DNA of 64,000 nucleotides from Paramecium tetraurelia (taxonomy: Eukaryota; Ciliophora; Oligohymenophorea; Peniculida; Parameciidae), in NCBI RefSeq assembly GCF_000165425.1, contig NW_001799189.1, positions 438,728 through 502,727 of the forward strand, in the 5' to 3' direction. The notes beneath the pieces were generated by a model that was given only the letters and a program-made list of their open reading frames with translations, was not told the DNA's origin and searched no databases. A program made the translations under genes and the position numbers. Shown here piece by piece: positions 12,657-63,556 of the stretch; the first letter of the stretch is position 1, and the number at the start of each line of letters is the position of its first letter.

Positions 12657-13117
12657 ATGGTTCAAGTAAAGAGATAAGATAGAAGAAAAGTCTATGAATA
12701 TTTGTTATTGGAAGGTGTTATTGTTATCAAGAAGGTATATTTTCATAACAATTCAAGGACATGGCACTTCCACTCCATGCTGAAACAGGTGTAAAGAACT
12801 TGGAAGTTTGGATGCTTTTGAGAAGCTTGAGAGACAAAAAGCTTGTGGATTTGGTATTCTCATGGCAATACTACTATTATTACCTTAAGGCTGAAGGTGT
12901 TAAATATGTCAGAGATAAATTGGGTATATGAAAATCATCTATGGTAAAAGGCATTGTCGAGGATGTTATCCCAGCCACTTTCAAGAAAGCAGATAAAAAG
13001 TTTGATGAAGATGTTCCTGAATAAAGAAGAGGCCCAAGAGGAAATAGGCCCTTTGGAAGAGGTGGTAATAGAGGACCAAGAAGAGCAGAAGAAGGAACCG
13101 AAACAGCATAACAATGA
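12657..13117 (+). CDS. RPS10: 40S ribosomal protein eS10
   Basis: Small-subunit ribosomal protein eS10, 136 residues. It begins MVQVKRQDRRKVYEYLLLEG, has the family core (MALPLHAETGVKNLEVWMLL, VFSWQYYYYYLKAEGVKYV) and ends in the usual Arg/Gly-rich tail (RRGPRGNRPFGRGGNRGPRR). Introns at 12735-12757 (23 nt) and 12924-12950 (27 nt) both end in AAG and both are required to keep the known sequence, which shows that AAG is a usable 3' splice site here. Length and order match the family closely. Confidence 0.95.
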
Positions 13118-13166
13118 GATTGATATATAAAAATGGTACATTATATATGTCTATCTATGCTTTAAT

Positions 13167-14727
13167 TCAATCCCTTTTACTCTTTGTGTTTTTATTAGCT
13201 TTTTAAGGGTTGTCAGAAGGCATTCCTTTAAACATATTTTATATTTTCTTGTCCATTTCTGAGTAAATTTTTCTCATTGCCACCATAAATAATATGAAAA
13301 CACCTCCCATAATTGTTATTGTTAAAATCAGATTTTAATAATATCTAGCTCTTCTCTCAAACATCAGATCTATTGAATTGACAGAACTTGACACTTTTCC
13401 AAATGTATTTATTAAAGCAACCAATTCATTTCTTTTCAACTTTCCTGAAAATTCACTTGGAGATTCAGAAAATAGAATTTTTAATGCTGTTCCTAATCCA
13501 TAAGTCTACATCTTTCCAAATACTCTACATTTTTGACATTCCACACAATCCATGATTTTACTTATGTTGTGAATATATCTTTGATAATCTTTCTTTTAAT
13601 CCTAACAATAATAATGTTTAATAAATTACGAATGTTATTTAATTGAAGAATTATTATTCATCAAAAGGTTTAGAACATTAACTATTACCTAGAGATAAGA
13701 TGGTGTTCAATAAATATTTGGATCTAGTATCTTCTTCAAAAGACATTGAATTTATATCATGTTTTTGAATTCCTGGAGATGCTAATATGACTGCCCTTAA
13801 AAGAACAGAATATATAAAGAACAAGTTTCGAATTCTTTCAGGATGATTACCTACTCTTTCGAAATATAATGAATAATTTGGGTAGGTTCTATTTGTTGAT
13901 AAATCAACATAAAACTCACTCAACTAAGTCGAAATCGAAGTATGCAATCCCTACACTAATTTATTCAATGCTCGCTTCTCCCTACACATTTCATTTAATG
14001 AACCTTAGTAACAGTTTTCTTTATATATAACATCCCAAATGTGTTGTCCTTAGTATCCTGTATAGGCTTCAGGATTTAATTTCAAATCAACATAGACACC
14101 CTTGTCATTTTCGATATCTTCAACATGCCATATCCATTCAGATGGAGCTACAACTCATGAATGAAATTACATAGATATCTTTCTGAATCCCAGAATGCAA
14201 AATCATCTTTTGGCTAACTTATTGGAGAGGATACTGGGGCCAACCAATTGGATGGAATCTTGAATATATTAACCTTATTACTTCTGAGGTGTTACAAGTG
14301 CAAATTACACATTTTCTACTTGTGCAAATGTATTCCCCAATAGAGAATGGACAATCATTTTCTAAATTGACTCTGAAGATCTTAAAATATTTTTTGTACT
14401 ATAAATTCGATCCTTATTTTTACAGTCAATTCATCCAATAGAGGGAATATTTGATCATTCACTGATTTGAGAGTTTGAAAGTCTTAACAGCTATCCTCAA
14501 CAATTCCTTCATATTTAAAGCCTTTTTCCAACTAATTGTTTGATAGCTTTAATTACTAATATGTAGTTCAATCCTGTTATAATTATTCCTGCTACGTATG
14601 CATAAATCAACCAAGAGATGCATTTCCCCATCATCTTTAATTCCCATTCTTTTCTTTGTCTTCTTTTAGCTCTCTCTATTTTCAATTAAGTGAGTTCGTC
14701 TACAATCTCATCTTACCCTCTTTACAT
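13167..14727 (-). CDS. ERO1: ER oxidoreductin ERO1
   Basis: FAD-dependent oxidase that reoxidises protein disulfide isomerase in the ER, 478 residues, five introns (14532-14556, 14399-14423, 14259-14281, 14148-14170, 13602-13629). Both redox centres are present: Cys-rich N-terminal shuttle segment (EDSCQDF, then [19 protein letters not shown]) and the active CVECQKC motif. FAD-domain landmarks include [42 protein letters not shown] and [14 protein letters not shown]. Unusually there is a hydrophobic helix near residues 37-58 ([17 protein letters not shown]) and a second near the C-terminus ([19 protein letters not shown]), so it is probably membrane-anchored at both ends. It is convergent with eS10, 49 bp away. 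Confidence 0.93.
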
Positions 14728-15075: not shown

Positions 15076-17042
15076 ATGTTGGCTTCAAGATCTGATTCTC
15101 AATTAAGAAGTCTTGAAAATCCAGATAAATAAACGATGAGAGGAGAATCTTCCAAAAGAAGTGATAAATTGCTTGAAATTCCAAGAAAAAAGCTCAATAT
15201 GAGGTTATTGTTTTTATTACAGTTAGGCTGTATACTGAGCAGGAACAAAAGATTTAGAATTTAATTAATTCTAAAACAGTTACAATTAGTATTATTGCAT
15301 TGGTCGGAATATATGCAATTTTAATTTTTGTTATTGTAGCTTTAGAGGAATTGATGGATGAGACATAATTCAACAATGTGTCTGTAATACTGAGTTGGAT
15401 AGAATTAGGAATCCTAATTGTTTTCATTTTAGAAATAGCAGTTGGTTTATATGCATGGGGTGTGATGGTAAGTATTAAAAAATAAATTAGAAATATTACA
15501 AAGATAAATGGTTGATTTTGGATACTCTCATTATATTATTGTCTCTCTTTTTTGTGATCTTTGAATTGGCAGATTAGAAAACATCAAATGTAGTCAAAGT
15601 AATCTAGGCTGTATTTCGATTTTTACGAATATTTCTACTTATAAGAAAGGCTTAAACTTTCAGAAGACTCTCAACAATGTCTACTATCTCTACACCAGCT
15701 GAAAAGATTGTCCGATTCTTATCAGAATTGAAAGAAGTGATCGAACTTGAAAGTATGAAATTAGATATCGATTATTGCATTGATAAAATAGGTAACAACT
15801 AATTGTATTAAATGGGAAAGTTGGATGATGATAATGCTGAAGTAAATGCTGAATATAATATAGGCTATGGGTTGGTTGAATCAAAGTCAATAGGGTAAAA
15901 GTAGTGTGAGGAAAATTGTCACAGTTGAATAACAATAGTAACAGAAAAAAGTACTAGCCAACTTTTAAAGATTGAACATTCCCAAAAGAGTAATCATTTG
16001 CAATATGTTATTAGGTGCTAGAACTGTTAGACAAATAACATGATGATTTATATATTGATCCATTTGAGTGTGACAAATTAAGTGGAGGGGAAGGTTTGGT
16101 GTATTTAATGTTGTTTCTCTTTGAAAATTACAATCTCTATGATGTGTTCTTGATTAAACCCAAAGTTGTCAGAAGTTATTTCGAGGAAGTAATGAGGGGA
16201 TATCAAGACAACCCATATCATAATAGAGTGCATGCATAAGATGTGGCATAAACATGCAATTTTTTGTTGAATAGATGCAAATTTATTGAGATTGGCTAAT
16301 TAGATGAATAAGATATAGCTTGTGTTCTAATTGCAGGTGCCATTCATGACTATGGACATCCTGGTCTAACGAATGCCTTTCTTATTAATAGTAAAAATGA
16401 GTTAGCATTAACTTACAACGATTAAAGCGTTTTGGAAATGTTTCATCCATCCTAATGCTTCAAAATCGCTTGGACAAACCAGAAAGCAAATATCTTTGAA
16501 AGTCTGACATTTCAAAAATACAGAAGGATTAGAGAATCTATTATCTCGATGGTTTTATCCACTGACATGGCTCATCATGCTTCTGAATTAGCCATAACCA
16601 ATAGTAGAGTGGCAGCACGTAAGTTATGTTGTGAATTTAGCCGACTTTGAACCATACGGGAAGGATAAACAAAGATTAATGGATTTGGTTGTTCATTCTT
16701 CAGATGTATCAAATCCAACTAAAAGCTTTGAAATCTACAAGTAGTGGACAGAGAGAGTTCTGACAGAGTTTTGGTTACAGGGAGATAAAGAACGAGAACT
16801 CGGCTTGCCTATCTCCTATCTTTGCAATAGATATACAACCAACATGGCAGAGGCCTAACTGGGGTATTTAAACTAATCATATTAGCTTTATTGATTATGT
16901 GGTCAAACCAACATTTTCTTGTGTTCAGGGTTTTCTTCCAGCTTTTGAGCCTTATCTCGAAAATCTAGATAAGAATAAGGCTAAATGGCAAGAACTTGTT
17001 GGGTACTACAAACAATAATTGGCCTCCATTTAAACTTAATGA
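15076..17042 (+). CDS. Voltage-sensor-like domain fused to cyclic-nucleotide phosphodiesterase
   Basis: 609-residue membrane enzyme, six introns (15204-15226, 15468-15490, 15842-15863, 15990-16014, 16619-16640, 16864-16885). Four hydrophobic helices come first: about residues 65-85, 98-122, 128-150 and 155-175. Helix 2 has Glu (ILEIAVGLYAWG), helix 3 has Asp (WLILDTLIILLS) and helix 4 reads FRFLRIFLLIRKAQTFRR with Arg at 0, +3 and +9, the pattern of a voltage-sensor S1-S4. The C-terminal half is a class I PDE: YHNRVHAQDVAQ, the metal site HDYGHPGLTN, HHASELAI, VHSSDVSNPTKSFEIYKQW. It should hydrolyse cAMP or cGMP, perhaps under voltage control at the plasma or ciliary membrane. The coupling is inference. 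Confidence 0.88.
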
Positions 17043-17378: not shown

Positions 17379-19214
17379 ATGAATTTTGAAGATAAATAAA
17401 ATGACAGGCTATACAAAAATAGATTCTATATAAAGCATAAGATCAGTGCAGGTACTTTTTGAAACTGGTTTAACTTTTGTAAGGTTCATTTGGGGTTGTA
17501 TTCTTATGTTAAGATCTGCAGACCAAAGAATATGTGGCAATGAAAGTGGAGAAGGAAGACACCAATTCAATGAGTTTGGAAAGGGAAATCTAAATGTTAG
17601 ATGAATTAAAAAAGCTTCCAGGTTAGAAATTTGCTAAAATAGGGATTCCAAAAATAATATGGGCAGGAAATGAGCATAATCATAATTGTTTGGTGATGCA
17701 ATTGCTAGGCAGAGATTTATCCTACCATTTAAAGGCTTTAAAAAGGTTTTCATTGAAATGCGTTGTCAATATATCACTGCAAATAATATAAATAATTGAA
17801 GGTGTGCATAAGAAGTACTTATAAATTCATATAATTTGACAGAGGAATAATTCATAGAGACATGAAGCCAGAAAATGTAATGACTGGAAAAGATCAAGAA
17901 TCAAACTAAATCTTTTTAGCTGATTTTGGAATTGCCAAATTTTACAGAGAACCAGATGGAACCCATGTGTACATTATCTCCCATAATAGAAATAAATATC
18001 AGACCCTTCAAAGACAATAAATCCTTTGTTGGCACAACCAGATATGCAAGCATTGGAGCACACAGAGGATTTGAATTGAGTAGAAAAGATGATCTAGAAT
18101 CAATTGGATATATGATTGTCTACATGTACAAAGGAACCCTGCCTTGGTAAACCTATCATAACGTCGCAGAGAAGGAAAAGACTAAAATGGTTGGTTAGAT
18201 CAAATAATAAACATCATTAGAAGAATTGTGTAAGGATTGTCCTTAAGAATTTTATTAGTAACTCTCATTCATATTCATATGTAGATATTTTCATTATGTA
18301 AAACAATTGTAATACAAATCTACTCCTGATTATAGATATTTACATTCCTTATTTGAGTAAATATCTATAAACAATGGATTTAAACATGATAAAAGGCTTG
18401 ACTGGACTGAATTCTCTCAAGGAACCACTAAAATCTCAGGAGAATAGACCCAACAAGAAACAAAACAACCAGTTAGGTCTTCTAGATAAGATGATAAATT
18501 TAAAAATGTTGACTACATTCCATCGAAAAGGTACATATTTTATTTAATTATCAGATCCGATATTAATAATTTACAAAAAGCAATTAATAGTAATAGGAAT
18601 AGAAGTAGACATCAATCAGAATAATGTGTCAATAAAAGTAATAACAGTGGAAATAGTTTCTCATCTTCATATATCAATAGTTAGCAATCTTCAATTCTTT
18701 TAAACTATTAAAACTCATAATTTTCTCAAAATAATATTAGAATAGGATCCTCAAAACTACTTAGCAAATTATAAGAAAGGGGAATCATCAGTTTACATCA
18801 GGATTCTAAAGGATCTCTAATTTAATAGCAATCTTCTAAATCATTTCATGAAAGACACATGTCCTCTCACTTATAATAGTAATTAATTCCTCAATAGCAG
18901 CAGTCATTTCATAACAATAGTTAGATCATGCAACTCTAATAAGAAGACTTTTAAGATCTGGAGGAACTTGAAGAAAGATTAAAAAATGATAAAAAGTCTA
19001 AGTAAAATATACATTAATCAAGAGTTAACGAAATTAGGCTCATAAAAGCAACAAACCATTAAAAGTCAAAGAAATTCAAAATCATTTTAAGCAACCTGAT
19101 AACTAAACTGATTTGTAAGGAATGACATAATTAGAAGAAGCAAGCATCGAAAACAAGCTATAAAACTACACTTCTTATGCTCCAAAATTAAAACAAAACT
19201 TAGCTAAATATTGA
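17379..19214 (+). CDS. Casein kinase 1 family protein kinase
   Basis: 564-residue Ser/Thr kinase of the CK1 group. Five introns: 17452-17483, 17815-17842, 17969-18002, 18531-18554, 19002-19024. Kinase motifs in order: glycine loop ISAGSFGVVFLCQD, catalytic Lys in EYVAMKVEKED, HRDMKPENVM, LADFGIAKFYRE and the CK1-specific SIGAHRGFELSRKDDLESIG replacing the APE motif. THVPFKDNKSFVGTTRYAS is typical of the group. After about residue 300 comes a long Gln/Ser/Asn-rich tail probably used for localisation. The start at 17379 is set by the need to read into ISAG in frame; the nearer ATG at 17401 is in another frame. The 24-nt fourth intron keeps the frame and could be retained. Confidence 0.92.
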
Positions 19215-26147: not shown

Positions 26148-28723
26148 TCAATTTTTTAATATTTCGAATGGATTTTAAGATTTGATTTATTACTTTTTAG
26201 ATTCCTTCTTTTGTTTATTATGGTGATGAGCTATTGCAAAATCTTAAAGTTCATTCTATAATATGTATAAGTATTTACATGAGGTTTTCTGTCTCTGTTG
26301 ATTACTCTCTTTTGATCTTCTTAATCGTTATTCTATCCATCTTTCTATTCTCTATCATTATCTCTTTGAGGCTAATTATCTCTATAACCTTTATTATCTC
26401 GTACATTGTCTCTATTTCCTCTGTTGTCTTAATAATCCTTATTATCTTTATTTTCCCATTTTTCTCGTTTTTCTCTATAATTATTATCTCTTCGCTCCCT
26501 GTTATCGTTATTATCTTATTAATCTCTCTTATCCCATTTATTTCTATTATCCCTATTATCTCTATTATCCCTATTGTCTCTATTATCCCTATTGTCTCGA
26601 TTATCTCGATTATCTCTATTATCTCTATTATCCCTATTATCTCTATTATCCCTATTATCTCTATTATCTTTATTGTCTCTATTATCCCTATTGTCTCTAT
26701 TATCCCTATTGTCTCTATTATCTCTATTGTCCCTATTATCTCTATTATCTCTATGGTCTCGATTATCCCTATTATCTCTATGGTCTCTATTATCCCTATT
26801 ATCTCTATTGTCTCTATTATCCCTATTGTCTCTATTATCTCTATTATCCCTATTGTCTCTATTATCCCTATTGTCTCTATTATCTCTATTATCCCTATTA
26901 TCTCTATTATCCCTATTGTCTCTATTATCTCTATTATCCCTATTATCTCTATTATCTCTATTATCTCTATTATCTCTATTATCTCTATTTTCTCTATTAT
27001 CCCTATTATCTCTATTATCCCTATTATCTCTATTATCTCTTTAATATCGTTGGTCTCTGTTATCTCCATAATCCCTATTATCTCTTTAATATCGTTAATC
27101 TTTATTTTCCCATTTATTTCTATAATCTCTATTGTCTCTTTAATCTCTATTTTCTCTTTAGTCTTTATTATCTCCCTAATCTCTATTATCTTTCTATTCT
27201 TTATTTTCTCCCTATTCTCTATTCTCAATCAATTCTTTAGTTTCTCTTTTATCAGGGTTTTCTCTTTAATCTCTTTTATCCTTATCATAATCTCTATTAT
27301 CTCTTTTATAGTCTCTATTATCTCTATTGTAATTGTCTTTTCTATTTTCATAGTGTTTGTATCCGCCTCTTGGTTATGCTCTATTATTTTCATCATTTTA
27401 GTCTCCACCTTAAACATTATCATTTTAAAAATTTTTTTAATCTCTATTTTAATATTTATTTCCTCTATATTATTTATTATTTCTGAATTGATTATCGGGA
27501 TAATTATCTTTTTATTACTCTGCATTATCGTCTTGATTATTTTGATCTCTATTTCTATAATTATTTTTATAGTTATTATGATAATTATTATTATGATAAT
27601 TTTTATTTTGGTAGTCATTTCCTCTATAATTATTATACCTTTTTTAATTAGATTCTTGATATTATGATTACGATTATTGTTATTGTTATTGCTATTATTA
27701 TTATTATTGCATTTATTGTAATTATTCATCAGTTGGAATTTGAGATTCTTATTATTTCTATACCTTTTCCACTTATTCAACCTTCTTTTCCCCATCATCT
27801 GTAGGTGTTTATTCAATATTTTATGCAACTTAAGATTATTATGCCTTATGATTACTATGCAAAAATTACATTATTTTCTTCTGCTCTTGATGAAGTGTTT
27901 CTGAGTATCTTTGGGGGCTCTTAAACTTTTTAATGTTATTATTGATAATCATTGCCTCTTCTATTTTGATAGTCTCCTCCTCTATACTATTGATCTCTTC
28001 TTTTGTGCATAAAATCATTTTAGTTTTCTTCATTAAACTATCTTGGTTGCTTATGGTATTACTTTCCTTTATTTCCATAATTTCTGTCCCTATCAAAATC
28101 TATTTTCATAAAAATTCTTTCAGTCTTTCCATCAACTTCCTAAATAAAATTATATGTTATCTAATTACAATTTATAATTTATGGACATCAAGTAACTTTT
28201 GGGCATTATCCTTATCTACATCAAATCTAGCTTGATCCTCATGGATTGAGAAATTGTTCATTACAATGTCTTTTAAGACTTCCTTAATTTAATCCTCATT
28301 CAATTTCAGATTTTAGAGATGAATGAGAATGTTGACATTATCCCCATTAAAGTTAGCGAGTTACTCTTTCTTTTATTCAATAAAGCCTAATAATAGACTA
28401 AAACAATTACGATTGTTATCTTTATAATTTCTTCTTTGATTGTTGTCATTCCTATCTCCTCTCTCATTTCTATCACCTCTATAGTTATCTCTATTTTTAT
28501 AATTCCTTTAATTGTCTTTATTGTCTCTTTGATCATTTTCTTATCTAGGATAATCTTTGTTATCCCTGTATCCTCTTTTATTGTTGTTTCTTTAATTATT
28601 ATTGCCTTTATAATTTGATCTTTTTTTGTTTCGGTTATCCTCTTCATCAGAAGCATTTTTTGGTTTATCGTTGTCTTCATCTGATGTCATGTCACCCCAA
28701 TTTTACATTTAATTTTCAGCCAT
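26148..28723 (-). CDS. Asp-Asn-Arg repeat protein, probable RNA-binding low-complexity protein
   Basis: 832-residue protein, three introns (28140-28168, 27845-27869, 26256-26278). It starts MAENQMQNWGDMTSDEDN, then has a basic Arg/Asn/Tyr region and a short folded part (NILIHLQNLKLNEDQIKEVL, VDGKTERIFMKIDFD). After a poly-Gln run it becomes a very long array of D-N-R triplets with scattered KD, RE and RY, about residues 420-790. It ends with a lysine-rich tail (HHHNKQKKESKK). The composition resembles RD/RGG-type RNA-binding proteins that form granules. The same DNA read forwards gives a Ser-Ile repeat and in another frame Ser-Leu; these are shadows. Confidence 0.75.
26540..27050. repeat. 9-bp minisatellite encoding DNR triplets
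   Basis: About 55 tandem copies of TCTATTATC and its variant TCCCTATTATC-type units (TCTATTATC / CCTATTGTC). The period is 9 bp, so each unit encodes three residues on the minus strand. Base differences are almost all at third codon positions (AGA/AGG, AAT/AAC, GAT/GAC), which suggests selection on the encoded repeat. Looser copies continue to about 27230 and down to 26400. Confidence 0.95.
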
Positions 28724-50328: not shown

Positions 50329-53300
50329 TCAATCATCACTCATCAGTAGACAAGTACCACTGAGAATCCATTTGGAGGGGTCTGAATCCTCATTTTCCAT
50401 ATTAAGATTTGCTGTAAATACAAATGTAGGTCCTCTCATTGATGTTACGTAAACTGGACATTAATATTATCCAATCTTCTTCTTTTTCTCGGCAGTCACA
50501 GCAATCACATTAACAACTGGTAATTTTGGATGTAATTCCTTCTATTTCTATTCGATCAAGTATCCTTCTTATCCTTAACCACCCAATTCCCATGCAGCTC
50601 CTTCCAAATACAAACCATGAATATAAGCACCAGTCTCAGCCGAAACAGTAACTTCTTCATGTCCTTTGATTGCTGTCACATTTGTTTACAAGACCATCTA
50701 AATAATATAAATAATAATATCTTACATCATCTAAAGGTAATCCTTGTTCTCTAGCAGTCTTCTACATAATGGCAGTCAAAAATGACATGGGATTAAACAA
50801 ATAACTAATACACAATGAAATTGGGGTGACCATCTCTTGTGTCCATACTGCTAATTAGTTTGTTCTTTCAATTAAATCATTGAACCAGGCAGCCAAACCC
50901 TTTCTTGAGAAATAAGCAAACTTCTCCCAACTGGCAGGGACTTTATTGAATTGTAATGATAGAGATAAGGCTTCCATTTAATCTGTGATATTCAAAGCAC
51001 CTGTCATACCAAGTCTAAGATCCTCAAGTGATCTTCTGATTTCACCTAATAAGATGTTCATTCTTTCACATTCTTATAAACAGACAATTTGATCTGGTGT
51101 CTTTTCTGATGCCTTAGCTGTGACATCCATTAAATTAGTATCAGCAGGAGTTGTAGATTTTAATAATGTCAATTAAGTCATGACTCCATCATCTTTTTTA
51201 CCTCCACCACCACTGCTAGATCCTCCTTGAACATCCAAAATGGTACTGAATAAGGTTTCACATTATTATGTCAAGTAACCAATTTCGGCATTTGGATGCA
51301 TACCAAACATTTATGGAGATTCAATTGGTAATTTCTTCTCAATGTATTCCTTATATTATTCATATTCGAATCTTGAAGGATCTGGTGATTTAAATCCTGG
51401 ACCCAAACTGAAATTTGGTTGTAATAATTCTGGTTTAATTAAGACTTTCAAATATGTGGCATTAGTTCTTCTATCCCAATCGTCTGTAATGTGTCCACCA
51501 TACATAATTTCACCAAAAATATATTTCAAATCATCCCAAGGGACAACATCATATTTGGACAAATAATTATACAAGACATTAGCACATATGGTTAGATCAC
51601 CATCATTGAAGTTGTAAATTCTAGACCATCCCTAAGCACCAAACTTCTTTTCTACCCAAGACTAAGGAATGGAAATGGCATAAAGCAAATAAGCATGCCT
51701 TGAATTCTTATGGTTTCTTTTAACATTTATTTAAGAATTCTTAATCAAAGTGAGCATAGGCTCTTCTGAGATTAGCCTTTAAATCTTAAGGTGCTTCATT
51801 AGCGACCTTAACAGATGCTTATAGAATAGATTCTGGAATAATCTTCATTTCAGGCAGAGGAGGAGGTTCTGATGAAATGAACACTCTAAAGTTTGGATGA
51901 TGTTTAGCATAAACTGTTTCAAGATATCCTTCCAAACCATTAAGACCTGTCAACCAATTTTACATTAAATGTACATTTTGTAACATAATCCAATGTCCTT
52001 AAACAGCACAATCCAATAATGCTTTTCTAGCAATTTCTTCTTGACCTTGACCCATAGAGATGTTGATGAATTTGCCATTAAATGATGTGATATCATATTA
52101 GGCAGCCACTCTTTCCACTTCAGGAGTAGGATCAACTCCTGGGAATAAGACGAAGAAAATAGGTGTGGTTGGAGCCATCTCACTAAAGGTTTCAAAGATA
52201 GAGAATGGAGGTTATTCAACATACTTATCTCCCATTTCTTCAGCAACATAATTAGCCATAGCTGATGTCAATCTATCAGGTCTCATTGTTCTTAGTAATA
52301 GTAATCTATGGAATTTCTTAAGATGACTGAAAGCCTTTGGTAGATCACTGATTTCAGCCTTTTCTTCATTATACCATTTCTTCCATTGGAGATTGTCAAC
52401 TTCTAAACTTTATCCAAGACCATTAAATTCAGGGATTGATTCCAAAGCTTTGCAACATGCCCAAATAGTATCATTCAAGAATGATTTCAATGATTCAGGC
52501 ATAGGAGGAGGATTTAATTCAATTTTACCAATAATCAAATGGTCAACTTATTCTTTTGGTAATTTTCCTGCTTTCAAATTGATTCTCAAAGTAAGCATAG
52601 TTGATACAATCAACTTATGTCTTTCGAACAATCCTCTTCTGGCATATTGGAAAGATGTATAAGTAATACTTTCAATCAATTAATTAACTCTCTTTCTCAA
52701 TGATTATGGAGTAAGTTGATCGTCATCAGCAGCTCTCTTCTATTCTTCAGCTTATTCTTCTTTCTTTTGTTCTCCTTCTTCACCTTCCTTAGCTTCTCCT
52801 CCTTCTTCTCCTTCTCCTTATTAACCTTCTCCTTATTCTCCTTCTTATTATTCCCCTTATTATTATTCTTCTTATTGTTATTCTTATTATTATTCCTCTT
52901 GTTATTCTTCTTATTATTCTCCTTCTTCTCCTTCAGCTGCTTCTTCATCTTCTCCTTCCTTCTTCTTTCCAAGATCAATCTAAGCTGCTGCTTTCTCATC
53001 CAACATGACACCTGTTTGTACATGCTTATGTTCAGAAATTAAATCAATAGCTCTATGAACTACAACCAAATAAGATTCTAAAGAATATTTATAGAAAGAG
53101 TGGATCTTAGATAGATCTGTCAATAAGAAATAAATTAAGGCGCCCCTTGCAGCTGCATTTCTGTATTATTCTGATGTTTCATTGATTTTAGCTTCAGTGG
53201 CCTTAGCAATTTCTACTTTTTCAGCAATTTCTGTAGAGATCTTCTTAGAGTATTCTAAATTTTCAATCAAAGCAATATCTTCTAAAATATCACCTTCAGC

Positions 53301-56300
53301 ATTTGCTAATTTATATAATAATTCATCTTCCAATTCTTTTAATTTAATTTTGAATGAATTTTATTGTTAAATCAATTCTACCTTCTTCTAAGCCAAATCT
53401 GGTCTTTCTCTACCAACAACCAAGGCTAATAATTAATCACTTAAACCATCTTCAGTGACAGTGAAATTGATAAGAGTAGCTTCTGCTTAGATTTCAGGAG
53501 GATAATGTGGATTACTTAATTATGTGTGTAAGAACAATTAGAATTTAGGATGAACATCCAATTCTTAACCAGCGAATTTAATCTTCTTTTATCCTGAACT
53601 TTTGATGATAAATTGTCTTGCAATAACAGGCATTAAAACTGCATCTATTCTTTCATCCATATTTTCAATTAAACATGGATTACCAGCTTAGATAGAGAAT
53701 TCAATTTATCTATTTGTATTTTTTTATCCAATACGTAAGATCTTCATATTGTTTGAAGATTCCTTTTCTTTAATCCATTTGATTCCTTATAATTAAGGAT
53801 CTATGATCAATGGATATCTTTTCAGAGTTAGTTAAAATGGTACCATTTTCAGTACTGACAGCATCACTTGGCAATAATTATTGATTCCATTTTGCAATAG
53901 TACTTTCATCTGTCAATAATTTCACTGGATCAGCATTATTACTAAGTGGAACTTTGTTATCAATGATGAATTTCAGGAAGTAGTCCTTAATCATAACATC
54001 TCTGAATCTCTTGTTGAATGGACCAGCATATGAGACAAAGGCAGCTGAAACTAAAACATCTCCACTTAATAATTAAATTTAGCCTTCTAACATTTTAATT
54101 GCTTAATCCCAACGTTCATTTTCACTTCCTAAGGCTTTAACTAAACGATTGGCAGAATTAAGTCTCTTTTCACATTTGGCAGCTTAATCTAAGGCAGCTT
54201 ATAATTGTGCCATAGCTTTATTATAATCAGCAGTCAAAACAGCTAATCTATCATTTAATTCCTTCACTTGTTCTTAGACTTTAGCCAATTTTGCATTAGC
54301 ATCATCCAATTATTGAATAGCTTCTTTAAGTGCTTATCTCTTAGGTTCTACAATTTGGATGACATCATAATATTTGACAATGTTGATAACCCAATCGCAT
54401 AGACCTCTAGCAGCTGATGATTTATTAGCCATAGTTTATGCATTGAAATGTTCTAAATTCAAATAGTTTTTCTTAACAAAATCTACATTTGTTGTGGGTA
54501 CTTGATTTGCATCTACAATATCTTTGAAACCCATGAGTTTATTCAACAATTCTTTTGGCTTTTGCATCATCTTTTATGCACTCTTCCAATCATAAGCTTT
54601 AGGTTTCTTTGATTTTGGATCAACTTCGATTTGTTCATTATAGAATCCAGCCAATAAGAAAATGGTAGCTGAGAAGACATCTGGTACACCAGAAGGTGGA
54701 GTAGCAAAGTTCTTAGCAACTTAGAAATCTTTTTCACTCAACCCATTCAAGGCAGCCTTGGCTTATTCAACAAGTGGGATAGCAGCATCTAAATCTGCTT
54801 GGGTGGATGTCTTTTTCTATTCAACATCTTATTTGATGGTTGAACATTTAGCTTCTTCATCTGCTGCCTTTGCATTTTCAACTTCAGCCTTTGCTTTTTC
54901 TTTACCAACAACTTCAGCTACTTGATTAGCTTCATTCTTAATTTATTCAGCTTCTTATTGTTTTTCCTTGACTTGAATTTCAATTTCAGCCACTAAAGCT
55001 TAGGTAGATCTCAATTTGATAAGACCATTTTCATATCTTTCCTTATTCTTTTCAAGCATTCCCTTCTTAGTCTTCAACATGAAAATATATAATTTGATCA
55101 ATTCTAAGAATGATTTAGGTGTAGTATAGACATATCTTCTTTCTTATTCTAACAATTTGACTGATAAATCATTAACTAATTTGAATGAGAATGGCATGAA
55201 TTTAACAATAGCCTCTCTAACTTAATCTGTGGGTACATCAATATCTTTTAAGAATTGTTAAGCAACATTATAGAGAGCATCTTAAGGCCAAGGTTGGAAC
55301 CAATCAATGACAGTAGAGTTGACAAGAGCAGGGAATTGACGAGCTCTTTTACGGAGTGATTCACCTACTGGTGAGAAACACAAGGTCATATGTAAATTCT
55401 ATCTAACTTTATCAATAAACCATCCCCAACATGAATCTCTTGTATCTGGTCTACCATCAGCCTTTACTTTAGGTCTAATTTGATTTATCAACACTTCCTT
55501 TTCATCTGAGTTATAGAGTTCTGCCACTTCTCCTGAAGATAGTAGATCATTGATGTATGTTAAGAATCTCTCGTTTGTAATTTGACCTTCATTGAATAAG
55601 AACATAATAGGTTCATCTTTGACACCTGATTTCTAGTAAAGTAATTACAAGTCAGTTCTTAGATCATTCATACCATAATTGCTTGAGATAGTAATCATGA
55701 AGAGTGTGTATGTCATAATGAATGCAGCCAATTTAGTTAACGATTATTTACCACTACCTCCTACTCCTACTAATAATGAATGTCCTCCTGGTGGTAACAC
55801 AATTCTAGTGATTCTACATACATGTTTAAGAGCATCTTCGAATAATACTAATCCCATATAAGCAAAGTTATCATTATATTCTTTTAATGCTTCAGTGATT
55901 ACTGGTTCCAATTTATCATTTGGCATCTGATCATAAAATCTATCACCACCAATACCAGCTAAGAAGTTACAGAAGATCAGATTTTCAGGATTATCTTTTG
56001 CAAAGAATCTACTGAAATTGAATTTGGTGAATTATTTCTTTAACAAATCGAACATCAATGCCTTATAGGTATTAAGATTATCCATTGAGACTAATCTATC
56101 ACCATATGTTCTTTCAGATTCATGAACCCATAATCTTATTAATTTATCTGAATCAATAAATTTAGCAGGATCGGCTAATAACAATCCTTATATAACATTG
56201 GAAATATGTCTAAGATTGAATTCATAATGGAAATTTATGGCTGTCTTTCTGAAATTCTATATGACACTTGTATGTAATTATAAAGCAGCTTTGATAATTG

Positions 56301-59300
56301 CAGGTCCATTTTCAGTGACAGCTGGTTTGAATCTCTTAAGATGTCCTGATAGGAATGTGTTGTAGATTAAGAACAAACTTTCATTGTCAGGAATAGGAAT
56401 GGAAACAGTCCAAAAGTGTCTTTGATATCTTGGATTAACAAAGAATGAACCAGCTGATGGATTCATAGCAGCAATTGTTTGAGTGTTGATGATATCCTTC
56501 AAACTCAATTTACTTAAATCATACCAATGACCATAATCTGCATGTTATCTTAACAATGCAATAGCTGTCTAAGTATCATATGGATCTAATTAAGGCATGT
56601 TCAAATCATCAATGAAATATATTAATTTTCCTTTTCCTTAAGGTCCAAATTGTCTACCTGCCTTCTTTTCCAATTATTGTTCCAATTGTGCCTATAAATA
56701 AGTTGAATCAGTATAATAATTGAAATTGATTAATTGATAAGTAAAATTATCTGGTTGAGCTTTCACGATATCTCTCAAAATACCCTTGGCCAATTAAGTT
56801 TTACCACAACCGGATTAACCAATCATCAAAACTGGTTGTTAAACATAAATAAATTATTTAACTAATTCACTTGTAGCCAAAGTTTCTTTAGTTGGCACTG
56901 TAATATTACCCATAACCATTGATTAAGGATCAAAATCTATATTAGATAATCTTTTAGCCCATTCATCGAATTTAACATTCTCTGAATTTTATTCAACAAA
57001 GTAATCAAATACTGTACCCTTACTTGGGAATTTTACTGAAGTCTTCCATTCACCTTTCCACCAATTAGAGAAATCCTTACGATAATCAATGGAGTCTTTT
57101 TCAGATAAAACACCTCCAATAGCCCAAACACAGCAATACACGAAATGATATTCCATATTCTTCACTTCTCCTTATAATAATGGCAATAAGGCTTTGCATA
57201 ATGAGATAATCATAGAAATTGGATTGACTGGAATCAAAGTCTTACAATGTTTCTTTAAGAATAGTAAAGTACCTTCAATATATCTATCAAATAGTTTTTG
57301 TAAATCTTATTTAAATTTATCATCATTAAAGTTATTCTTAACCCATGATTTCACGTAGGCTCTCCATTAATACCCCTTGTCATCTGAAATATATAAGATA
57401 CCAGCTCTAGACACTGTGGCAGGAGTAGCAAAACGAAGATCTCTGATTTCAAAAAGCATTCTCATGTGTGGTTTCAATGGAATTCTTTCATTATTTGCCA
57501 ACGTCAATATCTTATTGTCATCCATCACTGAATTCATAGACTCAATCCAATTAGCATCTAAATCTCCATCAAGTAATATCCATTTAGGATTAACATCTTG
57601 AATTTCACTTAGAGATCTCAAAACCTTTGAAACTAAACCATCTTTCCATTCCTTTGTTGGTAAATTGTAACCATACAAATCTCTAGTACTAACGACCTTT
57701 GGATCTAAATCAACCACTGTTGTCTTCTTACCAGCCTTATCTTAAGCTTTAGCCAACATTTTCCATGTGGTTGATTTACCAGCTCCTGGTGGACCCATTA
57801 CGAAAATACAATGTCTAATTTCTAATAATTCTGATGCTTGAACAATCTTCAAAATATAATCGGGGTCTGGATCCAATCTATTTTCAGCAGTAACTTATTC
57901 AATGATTCCTTCAAATGCCATATCTCTCTTTCTTGGAATATTGATATTTGGGAATAGATCTGATAATAATCCTGAGAAAACATCCAAATCTTAAAATGCG
58001 ATCTTTGGAATATTGAAATCTCTCAATGCTCTCATCAAAAGTGCCTATTCTGCAATATTTGCTTCTGCTCTCTTAAACCACCAGCAACGACTAAGACTGA
58101 TTTAATAGCTCTAAGTCCCCAATCATAATGCAATTATTTTGATAATAAATCTCTGCATAACATATATAAAGTAACGAATTTATGTGCTAATGTCTTTGCC
58201 TCTTCAAATCCTTCAGCCATCAACATGTTTTCACAAATCAATTCTAAATCTGGAACAACCACTGTAATTGGTCTAAACAATGCTTTCAATCCTTCTGGTA
58301 ATTCTGCTCTTCCCAAATAACCTGGATTCATTGTGATAAACACACCACAAGTTGGATCTAAAGAAATCTCACCTCCTCCTGGAAATAAAAATGTCTTTTT
58401 CTATTGTTTAATAGCATCAGTGACTGCCTTGAATTAGACTGAACAGACTGACAAGACTTCTGGTAATAAACGATTAAATTCATCAAAACAACCCCAACAT
58501 CCAGAACTAGCAAGTCCCTTATAGATATTACCCATAGATTCATAATTCATTTCTGAACTGCAATTGAATACGTAGCATGCTTTAGCTAAAGCATTAGCCA
58601 AATCTTTAGTGGTTTCTGTTTTACCAGTTCCAGCAGGACCAGCAGGTGCACAACCCATCTTTAAATGCAATGCTTAAGTGGCTGTGACGTAGATACGATC
58701 TGTCAATGGCGTAATAACCAATCTTGGACCATTACCCAAATATTCATATGAATAATTGAAAGATGCATCAGCAATTCTAATAAGAGCATCATTATTGACC
58801 CAATAGAATTTCAATTAAGATTGCCATTAAAATTCATCTGGTTTACGAACATGTTCATCAATCAATTTACCAATAGTATCTCTTGAGTGAGCATCCATAG
58901 TAATCAAACACATCAACTTTTATCTTAATGATTTAGTTAAATCTCCTCTAACAAATCTAATTAATTCAGTAAGAGCTTCAACACTTCTCTTATAATAATC
59001 TTTGAGGGCATTCATATCTCCATTAGCTATTTTTCCAAATGCTTCTTCTACTTAAACTGACCACATAATATTATTGACTAATAAAGCAATTTAAGCTGGA
59101 TCTTAATCAATCCAAGTTTTTCTATCCATTTGTAATTGGCATGTCTTAGAATCATAACATCCAAATGATTTCTTGGCTAATTCTCTTAGAGTATCAATCA
59201 TAGAATCAATCATGGCTTATAAATAGGTTTCAACTTTATTTAACAATTACAATGGTTTAACTAAAGATACTTCTTCTTGACCAACGCATGTAATCATCTT

Positions 59301-62300
59301 TTTGGCAAATGGTCTTTCATTATCATTTTCTTATAATTCTAATTTATCAATAGCTTAGAAGATCTTCGACATATGTCTGTTAATTTTTGCAGGTGAATTA
59401 CCATTTGAAAGAATATCCAATAGATCATTGACACTAACGAAATAGAATCTTGGGAATGCTCTTCTTTTAGAATCCAAAAATTCGTTCAATGCTTTTTCAC
59501 AGACCTTCAAATCAGCTTATATTTTTTCTAATGATTTCAACATATTTGGTTATGTACAGAACTTCAAGATAATCTTAATTTAGCAACCAGATTCCATAAT
59601 TTCTTTCATATTCTTATCAATTCCAACAAATTATTCTGATTCCTTGGGTAATTCCTTCTTGACTTCTTCTGATTGAATAAATAAGTTTTCCAAGAAGGAC
59701 CATGTTTTCTGTACTTCTGATAATAATTAAATAACATCATAAATTGCTCCTAAATCCTATTTCCATTTTTCAACATCTTTCTCAAAGAATTTCACATATT
59801 TACTCAATAACATATTGTTGACCTATAATTAATGTTCTTCCAAGGTTTCAAAATGTTCATCCAACATTTTCAAAGTTCTGATATCAGTATCCTTATGTTT
59901 CAACAATTCAAATTGAACATCCTTCCAGAATGTATCTACCTTGATAATTCCCTTTTCCATTTTTAATTCTTATTTTGCTTATTCAGAGATATCTTCAATT
60001 TTTTCTCTAAAGTCGAAAAGTTTAAGATTCCAAATAACATCTAATTCCATATCATCTCCAATTGCAAAGTCTTGATTTACAACAACCTTGACTTCTTTCC
60101 AATGTCTACTATCAGTTGTATTCATAGCTGGATCTTTTAATTCAGTTAATAAAGGAATGAAAGTACCCCATTTACGTAAATCTTCATTAATACCAGTGAA
60201 TACATTTGATCTTTTATCAATACCCTTCATATCAATTAAGAATTTACGAAGCTTTTTCACTTCATCTTCCATATCATTTGGATCTATAGTTGCCCATTTA
60301 TATCTCTTGTAATCTGAGAATTTTTATTCACATTTCTTGATGTGTTCCCATAATAATTATACAGCAGCTACTTCTTATTTGATAGCATCTAAATTTTTTT
60401 AGCAACCAACAACCTCATCTGGGAAGTTGAACATTTTTGAATAATATTCATAATTTTAAAGTGTTTTTGTGAATTTATCTATTTAAGCTTAGACTTCAGT
60501 AAATCTTTCTTATGAATCTTTAATACCAGTTTTATATTAATAAAATGTTTCTTTTTTAAGACCTTGTAAATATTCTTTTAATTATTCTTCGAATTTCTTA
60601 ATCTTTTCTTTGGTCTTATCAGCTTCTTATTTGACTGGACCACTTATGTCTTTTTCAACTGTTTATGAAATCTTTAATAAATTTTTCCATTCTTCTTGCA
60701 TCTTGTTCACTTTTTTGATTTCTGTTTCTTTTTTCATATCATGTTTTTCTAGTGTTCTTAATATTTATTCATTTTCATCTAATAACAAAAGAATGTTTTC
60801 TTTTTCATCTGAAATCTTTTTAAGATTCTCCATAACCTCTAATAAACTATTGACATCTTCTTAGATATTCTTATCTTTGATATTAATATTATCTCTGGAT
60901 GTGTCAATAAGTTTATTAATTTCTTCATTCTTATTAGTAACATAATTAACTAATTATTAGCCTGTATATTGGTTATTTTTAATTCCAACACCATCTAAAA
61001 ATTATGCTTTCTTAGGAGCACCTCTAATTTCATTAAATTCACCTCTTTCATTTTTTAATTTAACATTAACAATAACTTCACATGGTTCTTCAATTTAATA
61101 TTTAACAATATAAGATCCATCATCATTATCATGAATAGAGTATTTGATGTTAGCTTTTTCTTCTAATAATTACAATCTAGATTTTTCCTATGGTACCTCT
61201 TCTTCAACTTCTTCATATTCAGATTCTTAATTTTCACCTTCTTCTCCTTCTTATTATTATTTAACCTTCTTTCTCTTAACAGTTCTCTTCTTATGAGATT
61301 CTTATTCAATTCTTTCTCTCTCTTCAGGATCCATCTACTCTAATTACTATAATCTAATGGCTTCTCTTTATCTTTCTTCTTCCAATTCTGATAAAACATC
61401 AGGTCTAGTAATTTCAATTTAAAATTCATCAGCACCACTTTCTCTATTTTAATTATTCAAATTTCTAGTTTGAATATAGAACATAGTATCTGTTTTTATT
61501 GCATTTTCTCTCAACACTCCTGGTCCAAACATTAATGACTTTTCAGCCTTTGAGTTTAAGAAATAGGAATAGAATTGACTCATAATAGTGAAATCTAATC
61601 TATCAATACTGACTTTGACTTCAGATTTTCTAGCTCCATGTTTTTCATATGAAGGTGTTTCACAAGTTAATTCAGTTGGACTTACATATACTGCTTGAAC
61701 ATCCTCTGAAGCTTTTCCTGAAAAGAATCTGACAATAATATTTTAGGAATCCTTGAATCCATCTCCCGTAATAGAGACTTTGGTTTTTCCTGTTAATGGA
61801 CCTAAACATGGTTTAATTGAATAGATAGCATATGGAGGTCCAACAATTGATGAGACATTCAATGCATATATATCATTCATCCAAGCATTTGACCATCCAC
61901 CAAACATCATAATTCTAGAATCTGAAGGATCATAAATTAAAGTAGTTGATTCTCTAGTTTTAGGTTTGACTGGTTTTTCTTCTTCTAATTACACAGGTGA
62001 CCATTTCTTAGCATCTACATCCAATACAAAAGTATCATCAACTAATCTACTTGCTGTTCTGTTACCACCTTCTTTCGAAGTTACCAACTTGTCCACCAAA
62101 AATGAAATATTTCCATGATGGAATAGATGGCACCATAATACCTGCCATATTCCACTTAGGTATTTCATGTGATATTTCTGGATCTACCCAACTATTATTA
62201 TTAATATCATATATGATGACATTTTAAAATTGCGAAATTTGATTCCATCCGCCAAAAATCATGAGTAAATCATTCTATCCCATAATTTAAGAATTGTGTC

Positions 62301-62963
62301 CTCCTCTAGGGTCAGGTGGTGTTCCACTAGGTTCTAATTGTGACCATTCAAAACTTTCACAATCTAAAACATATAAATCATTGAATGATTTAGTTGCATA
62401 TCCAACTCCTCCATGTCCTCCGAAAACATACACTTTGTTCTTATGAAATGTTGCTGAATGATTTCCTCTTGGTTCTGGTGCACCAATCTTAGATTCAGCA
62501 TTTTTAGGTTCCCCAGTTACTTTTTAATTGGGTGGTTAAGACCATTAGAAATTAGTAGTTCTTAAGATGAATGTGTCATTAAAACGGAGATTTGATGTAT
62601 AGAACCCACCAAAAATAAGCATTTTCTCAGGAGTAATGGCGCATGCTGCATGATTTGTTCTTGGCAGTGGTGGATCACCAGAACATTATACTAACTTCCA
62701 TTCACAAACATTTGGTGCTACTCTCAACGAATATACTTATATGTTAATTACAATATCTACCTTAATTATTTGGTGCTATCTTTGTATTTTTCTTTTCTGC
62801 ATCTGGTTTCTTCTCGCTGTCTAATCCTCCAAAAAGAATGTGAGTTTTTCCAACAGTTACAAAAGTATGACCTGATCTAGGTGCTGGAATTTGTCCAGAT
62901 TGCTTCACTTATACCCAAACTAATGGTTGTGGCTGTAAAAAGATATGAACATATATATACCAT
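50329..62963 (-). CDS. Axonemal outer-arm-type dynein heavy chain with N-terminal kelch domain
   Basis: About 4,180 residues; force-generating subunit of ciliary dynein. From the N-terminus: kelch repeats (62,900-61,850; [28 protein letters not shown]), filamin/IPT-like domains (61,830-60,950), tail and linker, then the AAA ring. P-loops: [10 protein letters not shown] (about 58,630), [11 protein letters not shown] (57,780), GQSGCGKT (56,810), GVGGSGK (55,755). AAA1 has CFDEFNRL and [16 protein letters not shown]. The stalk and microtubule-binding domain lie at about 54,260-55,000. The C-terminus ends [13 protein letters not shown]. Introns seen: 62933-62960, 62736-62760, 50698-50725; the frame sum is off by two, and the joint near 62,070-62,100 is unresolved. 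The kelch plus Ig-like tail resembles Chlamydomonas alpha heavy chain. Confidence 0.93.
52705..52975 (-). repeat. Gln/Glu/Gly-rich insert inside the dynein ring
   Basis: Between [20 protein letters not shown] and RKRVNQL the dynein frame carries about 85 residues of only E, Q, G, K, A and D ([19 protein letters not shown] and similar). The DNA is a purine-rich GAA/TAA/GGA run. It keeps the frame, so it is translated. Its place is in the AAA5-AAA6 part of the ring. Confidence 0.85.
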
Positions 62964-63063
62964 CTGTAATTTAAAAAAAAAAATTAATAATATCATACCA
63001 TTCCTATTCATATCACTTAAATAACTATTATATAGTAAATAAATATCATATATCTTTAAAAAT

Positions 63064-63556
63064 TCAAATTCTTTTTTGTACCTTGCCTTTCTTTTCATTG
63101 TATTCATCACTAGAAGTCATTGGAGAATGATACCCTCCTTCGCTAAACTATGTTAAATATTATTTACCCTTTTTGAAATCTCACATATTTACTATTTTTC
63201 TTTGTTCTTCTAAAATGATATTCTTTTTTTTCTTCTCCGCCTCCTTCATTCAAAACTGATTTTTAAGTTCCTGTTGTCTAAATTGGTTGTGAAATTTCTT
63301 AAACAAATGGCGATGTCTTGCTACTCTATGAAAATATTCTGTCATTCGGATTTATCTTGCCTTTCTTTTACAAATTTCCACCCAATTTAGAATTCTTCAT
63401 ACTCAAAAATCCTTCCCATCCTTTTATCACATTACCAATATGACCTGTTTCTTCCAAATATCTTGTTTCCTCGTCAAATATACTCTTCTCCAAATTTTTG
63501 AGTTCATTCTCTAAAATAAACTTCTTTTCAACAAGGTCTTAGTATCTCTTATCCAT
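63064..63556 (-). CDS. EAF6: EAF6 / MEAF6 subunit of histone acetyltransferase complexes
   Basis: 155-residue subunit of NuA4/MYST-type acetyltransferase complexes. The conserved core is MDKRYQDLVEKKFILENELK, NLEKSIFDEETRYLEETGHI, GNVIKGWEGFLSMKNSK and DRIFSQSSKTSPF, in the order seen in yeast Eaf6 and human MEAF6. The tail is basic, then GEGGYHSPMTSSDEYNEKKG. A 25-nt intron near 63142-63166 gives this tail and a stop at 63066-63064; an alternative 20-nt intron ends at 63117. It lies 100 bp upstream of the dynein gene on the same strand. Confidence 0.88.

Follow-up and report, generated by a model that had tools for sequence, protein, structure and literature searches.

Few proteins other than channels carry a voltage sensor, and those named in the available text of one review are the voltage-sensing phosphatase and the sperm Na+/H+ exchanger (PMC10651576). 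In the voltage-sensing phosphatases (Ci-VSP, TPTE2/TPIP) a single S1-S4 domain without a pore is joined to a cytosolic enzyme. In ciliates and apicomplexans, adenylyl cyclases fused to K+ channels bring together a channel-type membrane domain and a cyclic-nucleotide enzyme, and are linked to hyperpolarisation (Weber 2004, as cited in the accessible parts of PMC4588038 and PMC10651576). How membrane potential sets ciliary cyclic-nucleotide levels is an old question in Paramecium, and this cyclase is the known molecular voltage link, on the side of synthesis (PMC4588038, in the portion available). Here we describe a gene of Paramecium tetraurelia that lies within a stretch of 64,000 nucleotides (contig NW_001799189.1, positions 438,728 to 502,727 of the forward strand; hereafter the window) and almost certainly joins a true homologue of voltage-sensor domains (VSDs) to a complete class I cyclic-nucleotide phosphodiesterase (PDE). 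It is referred to below as VSD-PDE. An earlier reading of the bare sequence (the original prediction) had proposed a voltage-sensor-like S1-S4 domain fused to such an enzyme, which is borne out by homology of the domain to true VSDs, a single reading frame and a complete PDE.

Features of the gene are listed in Table 1. It is read in the ciliate code, with in-frame TAA and TAG encoding glutamine. Introns of 22-25 nt and plentiful duplicate genes likewise fit a Paramecium-type ciliate. The six introns of VSD-PDE (23, 23, 22, 25, 22 and 22 nt) all begin with GT and end with AG, and splicing is needed to keep the reading frame because none of these lengths is divisible by three. A gene model built by hand and one produced by an unguided dynamic-programming finder were identical base for base, an agreement that is not fully independent, the codon table of the finder having been trained partly on this gene. 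Both models return the coordinates and the spliced frame of 609 codons first put forward, and hydrophobic stretches are found for all four of the helices claimed (approximate limits in Table 1).

The Pfam model Ion_trans matched residues 71-187 with E = 4.2e-12 and a score of 46.2 bits (the cut-off being 25), which is the outcome of the comparison with voltage-sensor profiles (hidden Markov models) that had been suggested for the helix region. The match spans positions 10-122 of the 241 in the profile, which make up the S1-S4 half and exclude the pore. When residues were shuffled within each helix and loop, none of nine controls matched Ion_trans at E<=1, against 2e-13 for the real segment, and a match driven by composition is rejected on this basis. 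Other membrane models hit the VSD segment weakly and under their own cut-offs (FKS1_dom2, 1.3e-3), so that some background from composition exists; Ion_trans alone was above its cut-off. Among structures in the Protein Data Bank (PDB), residues 1-240 searched as a single sequence found Cav3.2 (2.5e-13), TPTE2 (5.9e-7), 3wkv (1.1e-5), Ci-VSP (2.9e-4) and Hv1 (5oqk, 0.0019), and a profile of five rows found Cav2.3 (8.7e-18), Cav3.2 (9.5e-18), 3wkv (listed as 'Ion channel', 3e-8) and Ci-VSP (1.1e-6). Judged by sequence similarity, the closest solved relatives of the domain are the voltage sensors of Cav/Nav channels, followed by those of voltage-sensing phosphatases and Hv1.

No hydrophobic segment follows S4 in the models of VSD-PDE and its five relatives described below; a linker and the PDE come next. 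With no S5-pore-S6 after S4 and an Ion_trans match limited to S1-S4, a pore-bearing voltage-gated channel is rejected. A Pfam scan of the protein found neither a phosphatase domain, PDEase_I standing in its place, nor a cyclase domain. The protein resembles voltage-sensing phosphatases in its plan and in its VSD, but differs from them in carrying a class I PDE in place of a PTEN-type lipid phosphatase, in a VSD nearer to Cav/Nav repeats and in a linker of about 170 residues. The cyclase-K+ channel fusions, as described in the portions of those papers available, make cAMP and hold a K+ pore, whereas VSD-PDE is predicted to degrade cyclic nucleotide and is without a pore.

The best solved relatives of the catalytic half, which matches PDEase_I, are PDE1B (6e-60) and PDE4B (4e-57). 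The motifs YHNRVHAQD, HDYGHPG, SDVSNP and AQLGFID are present, and we take these four to hold the His/His/Asp/Asp ligands of the metal site and the invariant Gln; HDYGHPGLTN, the metal-site motif on which the original prediction relied, is among the features in Table 1. By these alignments the catalytic half is a class I cyclic-nucleotide PDE with a complete metal site. Its catalytic core, metal residues and Gln are common to mammalian PDE4 and PDE1, and an Asn in the substrate pocket is shared with PDE4 (DVSNPTK in the window, DLSNPTK in PDE4B, DISHPTK in PDE1B). The mammalian enzymes have upstream conserved regions (UCR) or calmodulin regulatory regions, not a VSD. The same Asn is present in all six fusion copies, and is typical of the cAMP-directed PDE4, PDE7 and PDE8. 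VSD-PDE is thus most likely cAMP-selective as read from this residue, a lean and not a result because the cGMP-specific PDE9 also has Asn at that position.

The genome (69 Mb, 231 contigs) was searched for further PDE loci and for relatives of the VSD. The 69 PDEase_I matches were grouped into 42 loci, window included, of which 41 (the window and 40 others) were modelled with the catalytic motif and one (L041) gave none. Paralogue models are automatic and unverified, and those of L009, L010, L015, L023, L024, L027 and L028 may merge adjacent genes. The VSD is carried by six of the 42 loci (the window and L030 to L034); at the five others VSD and PDE occur together, the reading frame of the model being open at four and disrupted by frameshifts at L031. 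Searching the genome with the VSD of the window gave 29 matches at E<=1, with no further PDE locus among them. Five PDE loci account for the first seven (C58, 87%; the window; C138, 81-83%; C73 and C39, 33%), and the sixth fusion locus, C198 (38%, E = 8.9e-6), whose gene model holds the entire VSD, ranks tenth after C165 (6.4e-7) and C53 (4.5e-6). Matches at C165, C53, C44, C180, C190 and C149 are largely paired about 2 kb apart and resemble the repeats of large channels, from which we infer that these are four-repeat channels. Ion_trans was found in all five of the fusion VSDs scanned (every one save that of L032). Scans of bacterial and archaeal genomes and of viral contigs yielded 57 and 77 pattern matches, of which none was confirmed as a relative, a result uninformative on other eukaryotes.

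The fusions fall into two subfamilies, A (window, L030, L031) and B (L032, L033, L034), whose N-terminal halves are 28% identical. Nevertheless, residues E102, F109, E112, D134, K159, R166, R169, R175 and K176 are invariant in all six. The linker, for which a Pfam search found nothing above cut-off, has a conserved stretch common to both subfamilies (P.EK...L...I..I.NN..Y...E..WLNQ), and 172-182 residues separate the inner end of S4 from YHN/YHS across the six models, the 182 of L032 containing a read-through intron and the value of L031 coming from a model that skirts its frameshifts. Between the VSDs of the window and L030, nonsynonymous divergence (dN) was 0.095 and synonymous divergence (dS) 2.1, giving a ratio of 0.045 that is rough because dS is saturated. 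For L030-L031 (dS 0.37), dN/dS was 0.059 over the VSD and 0.015 over S2-S4, while S2-S4 gave about 0.03 for both window-L030 and window-L031, again with dS saturated. In comparisons of A with B, dS approaches or exceeds saturation, and little can be read from the ratios. Purifying selection acts on the VSD. In a tree of 41 PDE domains, rooted by midpoint only, the six fusions form one group (support 98/96), and its neighbour is a set of six PDEs that includes four with multiple membrane helices (94/88, not starred).

The original prediction would have fallen had its helices aligned with ordinary PDE membrane regions, and the VSD was compared with such regions from the same genome. PDEs of apicomplexan type with multiple helices resemble VSD-PDE in being class I enzymes with N-terminal membrane helices. 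At the threshold used, three or four hydrophobic segments appear in each of L036, L043, L047 and L048, all but one of these segments being N-terminal; the four proteins are possible ciliate counterparts of the apicomplexan enzymes. Unlike VSD-PDE, none of these four matched Ion_trans, and in the tree they belong to a group distinct from the fusions; when their profile was compared with that of the VSD, using thin alignments (5 and 4 rows), hhalign returned a probability of 0.2%. Ion_trans was likewise missing (0/2) from the N-terminal helices of L027 and L028, in a scan that passed over the hydrophobic stretches of L015, L023, L024, L037 and L042. An ordinary PDE membrane region as the origin of the helices is rejected on these comparisons. 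As a separate observation, the models of the paralogous L023 and L024 run from regions resembling cyclic-nucleotide-binding domains and protein kinases (by eye, like cGMP-dependent protein kinase) into a class I PDE; they are either neighbouring genes merged by the finder or a kinase-PDE fusion.

The charged residues of the VSD were then considered. S2 reads IELGILIVFILE, with an outer acid E102, F109 seven residues on and E112 three further, and S3 contains WLILDTLII with D134, so that the acidic residues claimed for helices 2 and 3 are present. We take the spacings of E102, F109, E112 and D134 to equal those of Shaker E283, F290, E293 and D316. By position, E102, F109 and E112 correspond to the outer acid, hydrophobic plug and inner acid of the charge-transfer centre. 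S4 reads KVIQAVFRFLRIFLLIRK, and its basic residues in subfamily A lie at -7, 0, +3, +9 and +10 relative to R166; the arginine pattern initially noted is recovered as R166, R169 and R175 at 0, +3 and +9. Subfamily B has an additional Arg at -4. In profile alignments with one repeat each of Cav1.2 and Cav2.3, R0 and R3 land on arginines of R-L-L-R-I-F-K. As far as sequence goes, the S4 charge pattern is real but thin, and voltage sensitivity is not to be assumed because only two arginines lie in the core, accompanied by two adjacent basic residues at the inner end.

From these features, we judge it rather probable that voltage controls the activity of the enzyme, and modestly favour the fuller statement that VSD-PDE is a pore-less voltage-sensing PDE working as voltage-sensing phosphatases do. 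The protein would be a membrane enzyme with its N-terminus inside, a Cav/Nav-type S1-S4 domain, a linker and a cytosolic class I PDE, with a presumed ciliary site. A change in membrane potential would move S4 (R166 and R169, with R175/K176 at the inner end and K159 at the outer end) past a constriction formed by F109, E112 and D134, and the linker would relay this shift to the catalytic domain and alter PDE activity. The likeliest sign is an enzyme active on depolarisation and at rest on hyperpolarisation. Hyperpolarisation raises cAMP and speeds swimming in Paramecium (PMC4588038, in the text available), and a PDE that is active on depolarisation and silent on hyperpolarisation fits this best. 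VSD-PDE might then act as counterpart to the adenylyl cyclase/K+ channel fusion that is linked to hyperpolarisation, with voltage setting cAMP from both sides. That depolarisation activates a cAMP-selective VSD-PDE is held tentatively, with more doubt than confidence.

Several observations weigh against this interpretation. Subfamily A has Gln at -4 of S4, where B has Arg; at +6 it has a hydrophobic residue in place of the Lys found in the aligned repeats of Cav1.2 (525-642) and Cav2.3 (485-594). The S4 of subfamily B lies under the hydropathy threshold used. A structure prediction from the single sequence of exon 3 alone had a mean predicted local distance difference test score (pLDDT) of 53; it predicts two helices corresponding to S3 and S4 and another two in the linker, to all of which we give no weight. 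The preference for cAMP derives from one alignment position. The tree program flags the junction of A and B as one between long branches, although the shared VSD and linker motif lend independent support to grouping them. Finally, one of the six copies, L031 (G000:C138:112300-115400), has frameshifts: two are seen by eye relative to the window just before the catalytic core, and YHS replaces YHN. It is probably a decaying duplicate, or the assembly contains errors there.

The alternative that survives best is that S1-S4 is a genuine VSD homologue that has lost its sensitivity to voltage and instead anchors the PDE in the membrane, targets it or mediates its oligomerisation. The sparse charges of the S4 core in subfamily A (R0 and R3, with the hydrophobic +6 and Gln at -4) speak for this reading, and membrane helices are the rule among the PDEs of Plasmodium and Toxoplasma (PMC5746546; PMC8809380, in the parts available). 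However, an anchor requires none of the charge-transfer and S4 residues that are invariant across subfamilies only 28% identical, and the low dN/dS of S2-S4 also counts against it. We regard loss of voltage sensing as unlikely, though to be entertained seriously.

It is less probable still, and in our view improbable, that voltage sensing is real but that the enzyme is cGMP-directed or dual and serves a cGMP signal linked to depolarisation. PDE1B, a dual enzyme, is the top single match of the catalytic half. Moreover, depolarisation raises cGMP in Paramecium cilia (PMC4588038, in the text available). Set against this is the PDE4-type Asn of every fusion copy, which leans towards cAMP even with PDE9 sharing it. 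We consider very improbable a VSD that itself conducts ions, by an Hv1-like proton pathway or a gating-pore current, with the PDE regulated by the flux or regulating it. The weak similarity to Hv1 and to 3wkv, presumably an Hv1 chimera, would suit such a domain, but the mid-S1 Asp, which is the selectivity residue of Hv1, is absent from both subfamilies (B has an Asp at the start of S1 only), and nothing hydrophobic follows S4 in the six models. An interpretation of TgPDE4, in the accessible text, as implying coordination with cation transport points the same way as that similarity (PMC7720076). Lastly, a model wrongly merging two genes, one for a small VSD protein and one for a PDE, is hardly credible and is rejected, since, although the gene was read from genomic DNA alone, the order and S4-to-YHN/YHS spacing recur in six of six models and both subfamilies share the linker motif.

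A fusion of a PDE with an ion-transport domain is not unique in print, being preceded by Toxoplasma TgPDE4 and TgPDE16, which are reported to contain part of such a domain (PMC8809380; TgPDE4 also in PMC7720076, both as far as their text was available). These proteins are described there in terms of ion transport and not of voltage sensing, with the word voltage absent from both texts, and the comparison with VSD-PDE is by description only. The catalytic region of TgPDE4 is reported with many substitutions (PMC7720076, same portion), whereas that of the window copy is complete. In Euplotes, genes with PDEase_I and Ion_trans are said to be 'always adjacent' in four subgroups (PMC8670190, in the part available), and these may represent the same fusion, with its halves annotated there as separate genes. 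In the accessible text of open-licence literature, searched by name and by domain and protist terms, no description of a voltage-sensing PDE was found, and the available text of two reviews of voltage sensors (PMC10651576, PMC13095418) does not contain the word phosphodiesterase. The voltage-sensor nature of the PDE fusion thus seems to be unrecognised in the literature searched, in so far as its text was available. We see a real possibility, somewhat short of an even chance, that there is a family of voltage-gated pore-less cAMP PDEs with a single origin before the two Paramecium-type subfamilies split, and maybe alveolate-wide; within the alveolate-wide reading, the 'ion transport' pieces of Toxoplasma PDE4 and PDE16 and the Euplotes neighbours may be the same fusion.

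If VSD-PDE does sense voltage, it would supply a second direct link between membrane potential and cyclic nucleotides, on the side of breakdown, and the few non-channel proteins that carry a voltage sensor would come to include a second-messenger hydrolase. Together with the channel-fused adenylyl cyclase it would provide push-pull electrical control of cAMP in excitable single cells, with no calcium involved. In other cells it would lend itself to use as a tool for controlling cAMP electrically.

Table 1. Coordinates of the VSD-PDE gene and its features within the window (aa, residues of the predicted protein).
Feature	Position	Strand	Details and basis
VSD-PDE gene	15076..17042	+	7 exons (15076-15203, 15227-15467, 15491-15841, 15864-15989, 16015-16618, 16641-16863, 16886-17042); 609 aa; TGA stop at 17040-17042
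S1 helix, aa 60-83	15276..15347	+	Hydropathy, limits by eye; Ion_trans match aa 71-187
S2 helix, aa 96-122, with E102, F109, E112	15384..15464	+	Hydropathy; residues in 6/6 paralogues
S3 helix, aa 130-151, with D134	15509..15574	+	Hydropathy; D134 in 6/6 paralogues
S4 helix, aa 159-178, with K159, R166, R169, R175, K176	15596..15655	+	Residues in 6/6 paralogues
Linker, aa 187-345	15680..16203	+	Includes introns 15842-15863 and 15990-16014; conserved stretch
PDEase_I catalytic domain, aa 350-585	16216..16967	+	Includes introns 16619-16640 and 16864-16885; Pfam E = 2.4e-78; PDB relatives PDE1B, PDE4
HDYGHPGLTN, aa 393-402	16345..16374	+	Part of predicted metal site with H355 and D505; H351 of YHN nearby; PDE1B alignment
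DVSNP, aa 505-509	16703..16717	+	Predicted metal-site Asp and PDE4-type Asn (His in PDE1B); PDE4B and PDE1B alignments

Other genes were noted in the window. Upstream of VSD-PDE lies an ERO1-like oxidoreductin gene (12727-14727, -; ERO1 E = 5e-40 for 13465-14085), and just downstream is part of a protein kinase gene (17459-17839, +; Pkinase E = 1.6e-8), by eye like casein kinase 1 (CK1). An automatic model of 4330 aa at 50329-63556 (-) contains Kelch and IPT domains followed by a stem that by eye resembles that of dynein heavy chains; a NuA4-subunit-like gene (E = 1.9e-22) has probably been merged onto its start by the finder. A predicted protein at 26148-28723 (-) contains a long array of Asp-Asn-Arg (DNR) repeats.
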